The translations under genes and the position numbers were made by a program. A DNA stretch of 64,000 nucleotides, taken from NCBI GenBank assembly GCA_026419195.1, contig JANZZV010000001.1, forward strand, positions 248,001 to 312,000, read 5' to 3'. Source of the stretch: Fervidobacterium sp. Its GTDB lineage: Bacteria; Thermotogota; Thermotogae; Thermotogales; Fervidobacteriaceae. Below are positions 47,155-57,187 of this stretch, in pieces (within the stretch, counting starts at the first letter, position 1; the number at the start of each line of letters is the position of its first letter). Under the pieces are notes generated by a model. That model searched no databases and was not told where the DNA came from. It saw nothing but the letters and a program-made list of their open reading frames with translations.

Positions 47155-47370
47155 TTGAAGTTTGTGTTGATAATGCTTGGTTTTTTATTTCTAATATACA
47201 TTGGCATCAAGATATTACCTCTTAAATTAAGATACGCTAATGTCTTTTTCGTTTTAACATTCCTTTTTCATCTTTTTGCTTCTTTTTCCTTTTCATACGT
47301 TACTTTGATAATCTCCATGGTTTTTATTATTATCTTTTTCTTGGTTCTTTTGTACATGTTTGGTCTTTGA
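47155..47370 (+). CDS. Small hydrophobic membrane protein, function unknown
   Basis: A 71-residue protein made almost entirely of hydrophobic segments (about two to three membrane passes), with a short basic stretch 'KILPLKLRYAN'. I do not recognise it. The TTG start at 47155 has a strong SD (AGGGGGTGAG), which supports it as a real gene. It ends 46 bases before potA on the same strand, so it may be part of the transporter operon. Confidence 0.6.
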   Translation: MKFVLIMLGFLFLIYIGIKILPLKLRYANVFFVLTFLFHLFASFSFSYVTLIISMVFIIIFFLVLLYMFGL

Positions 47371-53451: not shown

Positions 53452-54792
53452 TTGGAAAGAGATACCATAGTTGCCTTATCGAGTCCACGTGGCACAGGGG
53501 CAATAGCTGTTATAAGACTCTCTGGGGAAAAATCCCTTGAGTTTTTAAAAAAAACTTTGAAAAGTGATTTAGTACTAAAAAATATAAAAGAAAGAAGAAC
53601 TTACTTAGCTAATCTGTATGATGTTGATGGCGAACTTCTTGATGAAGTTATATTTGTTTATTTCAAATCTCCAAAAAGTTACACTGGAGAAGACATGGTT
53701 GAGGTCTATTGTCATGGTGGGGTGCTTGTAACAGACAGGATTATCGATAACTTTGTCAAACTCGGAGCTCGTTTGGCTGAGAATGGCGAATTCACGAAGC
53801 GAGCCTTTCTGAATGGAAAGATTGACTTGATAAAAGCTGAGTCGATATTGCAGGTAATAGAAGCTAAGAGCGAAACAAGTCTGAGGTTAGCATTGGATAA
53901 TTTAAAAGGTAAACTCTCTCTGGAAATAGAATCTTTGAGAACAAGAATAATAGATATACTTTCAAAAATAGAAGTATCAATTGACTATAGCGATGACATA
54001 GATGTACCAGTTGACGAGATATTCAGAGATTTAAACGAAGTTAAAGATTATTTAACCGAAAAGCTTAAGCATGCCGATAGAGGATTACACCTTTCAACAG
54101 GTGTTACAATGACGATCGTTGGTAAACCAAATGTAGGAAAAAGTACACTGCTAAACAGGTTACTTGTTGAAGACAGGGCCATAGTAACAGATATACCCGG
54201 TACAACAAGAGATATTATCAAAGGTGAGATAAAAATAAAAGGTGTACACTTTGTGATCTCAGACACAGCCGGTATTAGACAAACAAGTGATAGGGTGGAA
54301 CAAATTGGTATAGAAAAGGCTTTGAAAGAAGCAGAAAAATCAGACATTGTAATCTTTTTGCTTGATGCAACGACTGGGTTTACGAAAGATGATGAATATA
54401 TAAGTAAAATAATGAAAAACGAGCGCGTTTTGTACGTTTGGAATAAGGTGGATGTAGGTAACAAAATAGTCGAACTTGGTAACAACGTGAAGATAAGCGC
54501 GGTAACCGGAGATGGAATACGTGAGCTCGAAGAGCGTATTATCCAAATGGTAACTCCTTTGATACGAGATGGAGAAGTGTCTCACATAACTTCAAAAAGA
54601 CAACTTGAGTACATGAAAAAAGTAAAATTCCATTTGGATAAATGCATAAATGGTTTGAAAAACGGTCTTCCGTTGGATATAGTTTCTATAGATTTGAGAG
54701 AAAGTTTAATCACACTTGATGAAATAACTGGCAGAAGTTTTAAAGAGGATTTAATTGATAATATCTTTTCAAAATTCTGTGTAGGAAAATAA
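53452..54792 (+). CDS. mnmE: tRNA modification GTPase MnmE (TrmE)
   Basis: With MnmG it adds carboxymethylaminomethyl groups to wobble uridine (U34) of certain tRNAs. The N-terminal folate-binding domain ('ALSSPRGTGAIAVIRLSG', 'YCHGG', 'GEFTKRAFLNGKIDLIKAE') is followed by a G domain inserted in the helical domain with G1 'GKPNVGKSTL' (~223-230), 'IVTDIPGTTRD', 'DTAGIR' and 'NKVD'. The C-terminus is the expected CVGK (443-446) with the essential Cys. The TTG start at 53452 is preceded by GAGGTGAAAC. Length 446 is standard. Confidence 0.97.
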   Translation: MERDTIVALSSPRGTGAIAVIRLSGEKSLEFLKKTLKSDLVLKNIKERRTYLANLYDVDGELLDEVIFVYFKSPKSYTGEDMVEVYCHGGVLVTDRIIDNFVKLGARLAENGEFTKRAFLNGKIDLIKAESILQVIEAKSETSLRLALDNLKGKLSLEIESLRTRIIDILSKIEVSIDYSDDIDVPVDEIFRDLNEVKDYLTEKLKHADRGLHLSTGVTMTIVGKPNVGKSTLLNRLLVEDRAIVTDIPGTTRDIIKGEIKIKGVHFVISDTAGIRQTSDRVEQIGIEKALKEAEKSDIVIFLLDATTGFTKDDEYISKIMKNERVLYVWNKVDVGNKIVELGNNVKISAVTGDGIRELEERIIQMVTPLIRDGEVSHITSKRQLEYMKKVKFHLDKCINGLKNGLPLDIVSIDLRESLITLDEITGRSFKEDLIDNIFSKFCVGK

Positions 54793-54862
54793 AAAAAGCG
54801 GGCCGAAATTGACCCGCATAAAGCCGTGGGGGGTGTATCTCAAGGGGGATAGGGGGTTCTCT
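54791..54862 (-). ncRNA. Candidate C-rich small RNA with terminator (predicted)
   Basis: A compact predicted transcription unit of about 70 bases on the strand opposite mnmE and flhA. On the minus strand an extended -10 (TGATAAAAT, 54869-54877) is followed by a C-rich stretch with three runs: CCCCC (54852-54856), CCCCC (54844-54848) and CCCCCC (54828-54833). The hairpin GCGGG-(10)-CCCGC (54798-54817) is then followed by a run of seven T (complement of 54791-54797). The T-run is only on this strand, so the hairpin terminates a minus transcript, yet no minus-strand protein gene exists here. The C runs are complementary to G-rich SD sequences. Existence and function are inferred. Confidence 0.45.
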
Positions 54863-54868
54863 AAGAAT

Positions 54869-54898
54869 ATTTTATCACTTTTTGTGTTAAATTGTTAG
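54869..54898 (-). promoter_or_regulatory. Predicted promoter of the C-rich small RNA
   Basis: The minus strand has CTAACA (54893-54898), an 18-base spacer and TGATAAAAT (54869-54877), giving an expected start near 54862. The extended -10 matches the style of other promoters in the window. Confidence 0.4.
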
Positions 54899-55141
54899 CA
54901 CTTTGAACTATAATATAAGCATACAGTTGTGTTAAGATACTCTTACTTATTCTCGTACACTTTTTGGTCTTTTAGAAATTTGTCTCTTACTTCCGATTTC
55001 TACTTTTTAGACAATGTACATGATGAAATCGTTCAAATGAATTTCGGAATTTTTGAAAATCTCTAAAAAGTGCCAAAAATATAGTTTTTAAACATTTAGC
55101 AGACTTTTTGATATCATCAACAATTATGTTGAGGTGAGAAC
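54878..55141. other. AT-rich leader region upstream of flhA
   Basis: No gene is seen here. A possible TATAAT on the plus strand lies at 54909-54914. No FliA-type promoter (TAAA-N15-GCCGATAA) is visible. Two inverted repeats interleave: CGATTTC (54994-55000) with GAAATCG (55025-55031), and CTTTTTAGA (55003-55011) with TCTAAAAAG (55062-55070). In RNA these could compete or form a pseudoknot-like fold ahead of the motility operon; chance is also possible in such AT-rich DNA. Confidence 0.35.
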
Positions 55142-57187
55142 ATGAGAGCCGATGTAGCTGTGGCGTTATTAATTGTTGCAATAGTGTTCTTAATGATTAT
55201 ACCAATACCAAATTTTCTACTGGATTTTTTCCAGCTATTGAATATATCTGTATCGCTTGTTTTGCTTTTTTCAACGATGTATATTACAAACTCTTTGGAA
55301 CTTGCGTCTTTCCCAACGCTTTTACTTGTGATAACTATATTTAGATTAGCGCTAAACGTTGCATCGACTCGTGCAATATTGCTGCAAGGTCCAGAATTTG
55401 ATGGTAAAGTTATATTAACTTTTGGTAATTTTGTTGTTGGTGGAAACTATGTAGTAGGTATTGTTGTATTCCTTATACTTGTTATAATCCAATTCATAGT
55501 TATAACTCGAGGTTCGGAAAGAATTGCCGAAGTTGCAGCACGTTTTACACTTGATGCAATGCCTGGAAAACAAATGAGCGTTGATGCGGACCTTAACGCT
55601 GGTCTAATAACAGAAGATGAGGCAAGACGTAGGCGTGAGCAGATAAGAAGAGAAGCAGATTTTTATGGAGCAATGGACGGTGCGTCGAAATTTGTTCGCG
55701 GTGATGCTATCGCAAGTATAATAATTACAGTAGTCAATAGCCTTGGTGGTATAATTATTGGTGTATTGATGCACCAGATGGGATTTGTCGATGCGGCCAA
55801 AACTTTTTTACTTTACACAGTAGGGGATGGGCTTGTTAGTCAGCTGCCGGCGTTAATGGTCTCAACGGCCACCGGAATCTTAGTTTCAAGGAGCGCTGCG
55901 GAAGATAACTTGGGTGCAGAACTCATAAGAGAACTTTCCAGTGAAAAGCGTGTGATTGTACTTACTGGAATTATTGTTATCTTTCTTGGTTTAGTAACTC
56001 CACTACCAACTTTTACGAGTTTGTTGATAGGTGGGCTTTTTCTTGCGGTAGGTTTGCTTATCAAAGGTAAAGAGAAAGAACCACAAGTTGTTTCTGCAGG
56101 AGCTCCAGCTGGCGTTCCACCAACTCCTTCTGGTCCTGTACTTTCGACTCCAGAAGAGGTTTCTGAGGTAATTCAATCTGATACCGTTGAGATTAACATC
56201 GGTTATGGACTGTTACCTTTAGCTGATATATCTCAGGGCGGGGATATGCTTGAACGTCTGACAATGATTAGACGTCAATTAGCTCAAGAACTTGGTCTTG
56301 TACTTTCACCAATAAGAGTAAGAGACAGTGTTGTACTTAAGCCAAATGAGTATGCTGTTTTCATAAGAGGTGCGCAAATAGCCAAATATGAACTCATACC
56401 TAATCGACTCCTTGCTATAAATCCTGGCTTTGTAACTGAGAGAATTGCAGGAATTGAAGTTAAAGAACCTGCGTTTGGTTTACAGGCTTTTTGGATAGAC
56501 GAAATGAAAAAGGAAGAAGCAATTCAAAAAGGATATACCGTTGTTGATCCGCCAACTGTTTTCGCTACTCACATCACTGAAATTCTTCGAAGATATGCGC
56601 CAGAATTGCTTGGAAATAGGGAATTTCAACTCCTGGTGGATGGGCTTAGGAATAAGTTTGATAAGCTTGTGGATGATGTTTTTAGCGTTGTTAAACCATC
56701 TTCAGTTAAAAAGGTTCTTCAAGAATTACTTAAAGAGAGTATTTCAATACGAAACTTACCATTTATATTTGAGTTAATATTAGACAACGCAGATAAAGCG
56801 CGCGATATAGAGTCTTTGACTGAGTTCGTTCGCAGAGGATTGAAAAGACAGCTGGCATCAAGATTAATTGCACAAGATGGACAAATTCACGCTGTGGCAC
56901 TCGATACTGAACTTGAAAGAAATCTTACTGAATCTATTAAAGAAAGCGAAGAAGGGAGATACATAAGTATAAATCCTCAAATAATGCGCGAGATAGTTGA
57001 AAGAATATCTGCAGAACTGGAGAATTTAATGCGTAAGGGATATTTACCAATAATTGTTGTCTCTGGTACAATTCGTCCGTACATATCCAAGATGATAAGT
57101 AGGTTTATTCCTGGTGTAGCTGTTATAGCCTTTGAAGAGATACCAGAAGATGTCAACCTTTCAGTTGAAGGTGTGGTGAGAATATGA
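55142..57187 (+). CDS. flhA: Flagellar biosynthesis protein FlhA
   Basis: The large inner-membrane component of the flagellar type III export gate. The N-terminal ~310 residues carry seven to eight hydrophobic segments with the FHIPEP family signature region ('TFRLALNVASTRAILL'-like, 'DAMPGKQMSVDADLNAGLI', 'GAMDGASKFVRGDAIASII'). The C-terminal ~350 residues form the cytoplasmic chaperone- and substrate-docking domain ('IDIGYGLLPL'-type start at ~350). Length 681 is normal. SD GAGGTGAGAAC precedes the ATG. It heads the motility operon and overlaps flhF by 4 bases. Confidence 0.97.
   Translation: MRADVAVALLIVAIVFLMIIPIPNFLLDFFQLLNISVSLVLLFSTMYITNSLELASFPTLLLVITIFRLALNVASTRAILLQGPEFDGKVILTFGNFVVGGNYVVGIVVFLILVIIQFIVITRGSERIAEVAARFTLDAMPGKQMSVDADLNAGLITEDEARRRREQIRREADFYGAMDGASKFVRGDAIASIIITVVNSLGGIIIGVLMHQMGFVDAAKTFLLYTVGDGLVSQLPALMVSTATGILVSRSAAEDNLGAELIRELSSEKRVIVLTGIIVIFLGLVTPLPTFTSLLIGGLFLAVGLLIKGKEKEPQVVSAGAPAGVPPTPSGPVLSTPEEVSEVIQSDTVEINIGYGLLPLADISQGGDMLERLTMIRRQLAQELGLVLSPIRVRDSVVLKPNEYAVFIRGAQIAKYELIPNRLLAINPGFVTERIAGIEVKEPAFGLQAFWIDEMKKEEAIQKGYTVVDPPTVFATHITEILRRYAPELLGNREFQLLVDGLRNKFDKLVDDVFSVVKPSSVKKVLQELLKESISIRNLPFIFELILDNADKARDIESLTEFVRRGLKRQLASRLIAQDGQIHAVALDTELERNLTESIKESEEGRYISINPQIMREIVERISAELENLMRKGYLPIIVVSGTIRPYISKMISRFIPGVAVIAFEEIPEDVNLSVEGVVRI

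Follow-up and report, generated by a model that had tools for sequence, protein, structure and literature searches.

A strongly conserved predicted small RNA gene in most Thermotogota genomes and its probable role in restraining DNA uptake

Several small RNAs (sRNAs) of Firmicutes, RsaE/RoxS among them, use unpaired C-rich motifs to pair with G-rich Shine-Dalgarno (SD) sequences, and in pneumococcus competence is limited by the streptococcal csRNAs, sibling sRNAs with a common seed under the control of CiaR. The sRNA RocR of Legionella pneumophila represses comEC, comEA, comFC and comM post-transcriptionally (PMC7811196). RocR is found in Legionella and works with a chaperone of the ProQ type, RocC; the genes it targets can also be acted on by another sRNA, RocRp (PMC7811196, PMC9977716). 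Our literature search brought up neither a characterised base-pairing sRNA from Thermotogota nor a published description of the locus analysed here, designated sRNA-A; the transcriptome study of T. maritima reported only a dozen putative ncRNAs, with function not given (PMC3636130), and the sRNA-A transcript may already be among these ncRNAs without function.

Judged by the role proposed for it below, sRNA-A has its closest functional parallel in RocR of Legionella: one sRNA would act on several genes of DNA uptake including comM, and a second sRNA would act on the same targets. The two differ in that the seed of sRNA-A consists of C-runs, in that Hfq is its likely partner and in that we only infer repression by sRNA-A; no sequence relation between them was detected, nor any sign of common descent. 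With the csRNAs, sRNA-A shares the presence of a sibling with a common seed, while sequence, phylum, regulator and targets differ.

The window analysed, a stretch of 64,000 nucleotides from Fervidobacterium sp., contains among its genes two plus-strand ORFs, mnmE (53452..54792) and flhA (55142..57187), which are the convergent and the divergent neighbour, respectively, of a predicted minus-strand transcript of about 72 nt (54791..54862, the start near 54862 being deduced from the -10 element). All parts that a first-pass annotation had claimed for this strand are present: an extended -10 of the pattern TGnTAnnnT, TGATAAAAT (54869..54877); three C-runs of five (54856-54852), five (54848-54844) and six C (54833-54828); the intrinsic terminator hairpin GCGGGTC-AATTTC-GGCCCGC (54817-54798); and its T7 tail (54797-54791). 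The C-runs lie within a near-invariant core of 37 nt, CCCCCTATCCCCCTTGAGATACACCCCCCACGGCTTT (54820..54856), which is the proposed pairing (seed) region, and a weak -35-like CTAACA (54893..54898, minus strand), recognised by consensus match only, is separated from the -10 by an 18-bp spacer. As the annotation had likewise stated, the seven-T terminator pattern is confined to the minus strand, and the ORF list holds no credible minus-strand protein gene leading into it. This single sequence proves little, since promoter-like matches by themselves occur at chance frequency (6 found against 6.5 expected from shuffles) and the stability of the fold is ordinary (z -1.2); the C-rich half is mostly unpaired in both folds, and the terminator is the only consistently stable part.

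Conservation, on the other hand, does prove the case. Strong matches to this stretch were found in most genomes of the order and in several outside it (60 relatives searched), and the core CCCCC(C)TATCCCCCTTGAGATACACCCCCCACGGCTTT shows hardly any change across three families of the order. The alignment with relatives, which the first-pass annotation had named as a check, showed the C-runs, the -10 and the pairing of the hairpin to be conserved while the flanks diverge: over the 40 bases that begin with the first C-run, ten Fervidobacterium-clade genomes share 99-100% identity, against a mean identity of about 45-80% in the flanking DNA (promoter side and mnmE), TGnTAnnnT stands 21-24 bases before the C-run in all loci of this clade, and the 26 distinct terminator hairpin sequences among relatives all pair and all end in T-runs. 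With its conserved -10 and its terminator, sRNA-A has, as far as sequence can indicate, the make-up of an independent transcription unit. The covariance model, built from 26 sequences and run on 103 Thermotogota genomes, matches 81 of them (weakest E near 0.01), including 71 of the 82 genomes of good quality. An exact 30-mer of sRNA-A occurred in Thermotogota records only in a scan of genome contigs, and no copy was present in the viral contigs and plasmids searched. The neighbouring genes, whose names were assigned by inspection, change with the family: mnmE in Fervidobacteriaceae (f1), miaB in family f2, a phosphate-transporter-like gene and an rnhB cluster in family f3, and a lysS-like gene in genomes G047 and G053.

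The idea that promoter-like site, C-runs and hairpin stand together by accident, for which the chance-level promoter matches and the ordinary fold could speak, is refuted by this near-invariance across families with differing neighbours and by the number of genomes that match the model, and its likelihood is practically nil. Conserved intergenic elements sometimes encode small peptides, so a short protein-coding gene or a leader instead of a non-coding RNA also deserves consideration; every base of the core is conserved with no codon-position pattern, the ORF list offers no candidate, and no more than about 30 bases separate the terminator from the core, all of which makes a coding function very improbable. 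The mnmE-flhA gap, as we read these sequences, carries a very strongly conserved predicted small RNA gene, which is found in most Thermotogota genomes.

Further features were observed around the locus. An invariant TAAC box precedes the -10 in 19 of 19 aligned sRNA-A loci (window positions about 54880-54940), and a second conserved block, TTAACACAA..GTT-like, lies farther upstream; together they could possibly form the operator of some regulator. One genome offers a natural disruption (G008; locus L019, G008:C1:1943043-1946104), in which a transposase gene is inserted directly 3' of the sRNA-A core and the terminator is lost, while sRNA-B looks intact.

The first-pass annotation had compared the RNA to the RsaE type. 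The likeness to RsaE/RoxS lies in the unpaired C-rich motif set against a G-rich SD, as proposed for sRNA-A; the differences are that sRNA-A has no Rfam match to RsaE, carries C-runs of 5-6 within a 37-base invariant core and comes from a different phylum. Membership in the RsaE family was not supported, as no match to RsaE/RoxS appeared at the gathering or a permissive threshold; the covariance-model search of RNA families, also suggested by the annotation, gave sub-threshold matches only, and no Rfam family fits. The best of these scores belonged to the alphaproteobacterial suhB/MmgR (RF00519), likewise a small C-rich sRNA with a terminator, and membership there was rejected (21.3 bits, where the gathering score is 41). 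sRNA-A is thus of a known kind, that of base-pairing sRNAs, and as a family it appears to be new.

We consider it probable, at roughly 0.75, that sRNA-A, conserved across most of Thermotogota, and a sibling, sRNA-B, are trans-acting base-pairing sRNAs that block the translation of pilus and competence genes. Support for this reading comes from a pilin-like gene between nusB and folP, the leader of which contains in nine Fervidobacterium-clade genomes a conserved block complementary to the sRNA, GTATC[TC]C[AG]AGGGG..GGG, beside the start codon, with duplexes of -36 to -52 kcal/mol. The G-runs are otherwise arranged in the remaining seven f1 genomes (-20 to -41 kcal/mol), several Thermosipho-like genomes have weaker sites (-20 to -29 kcal/mol), and the leader of G011 carries a perfect GGGGGATAGGGGG. 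The predicted duplex at the pilin-like leader spans about 24 pairs with one interruption (-21 kcal/mol at 70 C), and in the window's own genome its -41.8 kcal/mol stands out from the 56 genes of the window, which provide the cleaner null for duplex energies (median -15.8, best -28.9 kcal/mol). The seven most stable duplexes of 441 leaders all belong to this nusB-adjacent gene; these leaders were taken from loci fetched by protein search and include its own, so that its percentiles do not rest on a clean null. For the background, gene starts were assigned with a simple rule based on the SD; this rule gives preference to leaders rich in G, and the target test is therefore conservative.

The N-terminus of the nusB-adjacent protein resembles that of a mature type IV pilin in its invariant E5 and its hydrophobic helix, and the protein gave no match to Pfam, NCBIfam or PDB profiles; we call it pilin-like on the strength of this N-terminus, without a family match. 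Its start codons showed a peculiarity: all seven Thermosipho-like f1 genomes have ATT, ATC or ATA at the conserved start in place of ATG, GTG or TTG, G013 has CTG there, and the unusual codons adjoin the G-rich site (L108, L114, L116, L117, L120, L241, L251).

The second gene with such a site is comM, identified by TIGR00368 with a score above the cut-off. Each of the ten f1 genomes examined has a site of this kind, such as TCAAGGGGGATAGG, in its comM leader (-28 to -43 kcal/mol), whereas the site is absent from comM in f2 and f3 (-8 to -23 kcal/mol). The predicted comM duplex has 14 contiguous pairs (-16 kcal/mol at 70 C), and in the window's own genome its -28.2 kcal/mol would rank near the top of the 56 window genes. 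The 11-mer AGGGGGATAGG occurs twice in this genome, in sRNA-A and at the comM SD, and its reversed control not at all; the pattern GGGGRTRGGGG, for which a reversed control does not apply because it reads identically backwards, occurs in sRNA-A, sRNA-B, the pilin-like leader and one CRISPR spacer. Both the pilin-like and the comM site are thus present in the window's own genome, and they are the sole family-wide conserved sites found in Fervidobacteriaceae. Complementarity to translation-initiation regions is thereby conserved at loci other than that of sRNA-A, and the two regions tested, comM and pilin-like, agree with a RocR-like role in Fervidobacteriaceae.

Several limits bear on this target test. 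G-rich SDs pair with the ribosome too, which raises C-rich complementarity in general, and the number of candidate sites says little, because the seed complement was itself the query that brought up many of them; the evidence free of this dependence consists of the conserved pilin-like leader, the contrast between families in comM and the ranking among the leaders from the protein search. The overall interpretation of the first-pass annotation, a C-rich sRNA pairing with G-rich SD regions, is strongly supported by the conservation of complementary SD sites among orthologous genes. Its three named targets within the window, each with 7-8 nt of complementarity, were rejected as chance-level SD matches: the energies of the peptidase at 411 (-18.4 kcal/mol), degV (-19.0 kcal/mol) and the small protein at 47155 (-23.5 kcal/mol) are unremarkable beside a window median of -15.8 and a best of -28.9, and AAGGGGG, put forward as an SD match, occurs 3 times in the window against 2.99 in shuffles. 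Both better targets, comM and the pilin-like gene, are located beyond the window.

The search with the seed complement also brought sRNA-B to light, present in most f1 and f2 genomes examined and as a variant in f3. Its sequence, GCAGCGACCCCCCTATCCCCCCTTGG, has promoter-like DNA before it and a hairpin plus a GC terminator after it; the copy in the window's genome is on the minus strand at about G000:C7:55083-55167 (locus L152, G000:C7:53600-56800), roughly 0.7 kb from dprA. Common to sRNA-A and sRNA-B is the seed ACCCCC-UAU-CCCCC, i.e., ACCCCC(C)UAUCCCCC(C)UUG, which appears within sRNA-B as ACCCCCCTATCCCCCC. The fold of sRNA-B leaves this seed unpaired (z -3.8), and no Rfam match was obtained at gathering or permissive thresholds.

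Further sites were found in single genomes or small groups of genomes. The dprA site is confined to three close species (G003, G007, G008), and dprA was rejected as a family-wide target; a second pilin-like gene has a site in five genomes (G003, G006, G007, G008, G009), and a GFxxxE prepilin in G015 has a candidate site. A GGDEF-domain membrane protein of two close species (G007, G003; L080, L081) is preceded by GTATCTCAAGGGGG, the exact complement of the sRNA-A core. Among Thermotoga-like genomes, GGGGGATAGG(GG) was observed at the start codon of Type I-B cas8b (TM1802) in G027 and G031 (L167, L255) and of a cas3-like gene in G021 (L392). The fapA-like genes in f3 and f2 (G033, G037: L256, L259; G030: L387) have AGGGGGTAGGGG or AGGGGGATAGG at the start codon, with duplexes of -34 to -40 kcal/mol, and fapA-like is a candidate for a target common to families. 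Other matches were discarded: mscL has one strong site in G022, not conserved across the relatives tested; those associated with IS elements in G027 and G029 belong to a hairpin adjoining a transposase gene; and the CRISPR match in contig 20 of the window's genome is a spacer within an array (L224, G000:C20:1-3000), where 45 copies of the repeat start were counted in 3 kb and one spacer contains GGGGATGGGGGG.

These sites allow a different view of the conserved base-pairing sRNA, namely that it is a general modulator of many mRNAs with G-rich SDs (metabolism, envelope, CRISPR), of which the pilin and comM sites are just two. In f2 and f3 comM has no site, and yet the core is conserved there to the same degree; with the comM site restricted to Fervidobacteriaceae, the invariance of the core in other families must be due to other targets. 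The GGDEF, cas8b and fapA-like genes, which bear sites, are not competence genes, and a candidate site precedes the cas3-like gene as well. Nevertheless, family-wide conservation was found for the pilin-like and comM sites only, mscL having failed, and the matches to AGGGGGATAGG and GGGGRTRGGGG in the window's own genome beyond the sRNAs and the CRISPR spacer are precisely the comM and pilin-like leaders. We regard such a general role as possible and somewhat doubtful.

The conserved stretch might, alternatively, be a protein-binding site in DNA or RNA, or the sRNA might be a protein decoy, with the G-rich leaders bound by the same protein. G-runs can bind proteins or form quadruplexes, and about 37 conserved bases without secondary structure would suit a binding site; nevertheless, judging by terminator and promoter, it is the C-rich strand that would be transcribed, and what the leaders have at the SD is its complement, whereas a decoy should resemble its target; in addition, the terminator is kept though its sequence has changed. 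Protein binding is therefore an improbable explanation.

According to the preferred reading, translational block by sRNA-A and sRNA-B, the C-rich, largely unpaired 5' half of sRNA-A would pair in Fervidobacteriaceae with the G-rich SD regions of comM and of the nusB-adjacent pilin-like gene; in some species dprA and additional pilin-like genes would be paired in this way too. The long duplexes would cover the ribosome-binding site and block the initiation of translation, so that pilus and DNA-uptake functions would be kept low until the sRNA level falls. Hfq could bind the 3' intrinsic terminator and assist pairing: it is encoded in 56 of the 61 genomes searched, the window's genome included, and the T7 tail gives the terminator the U-tail expected of an Hfq-dependent sRNA. 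Through the complementarity of its C-rich stretch to the ribosome-binding sites of the pilin-like gene and comM, sRNA-A probably restrains DNA uptake in these thermophiles.

Bacterial sRNAs as a rule turn over quickly, and it is unusual for one of them to retain its seed across most of a phylum and to have a sibling gene. Only tentatively can this be extended to an sRNA regulon dating from the base of Thermotogota, in which two siblings with one seed would gate pilus, ComM and DprA functions and the CRISPR genes of Thermotoga-like genomes. If true, this would be the first characterised sRNA of Thermotogota, and its seed would rank with the best conserved ones known for base-pairing sRNAs of bacteria, in a group noted for gene exchange. 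For natural competence, the low efficiency of which limits genetics in Thermotoga (PMC4029938), sRNA-A offers a testable control point.
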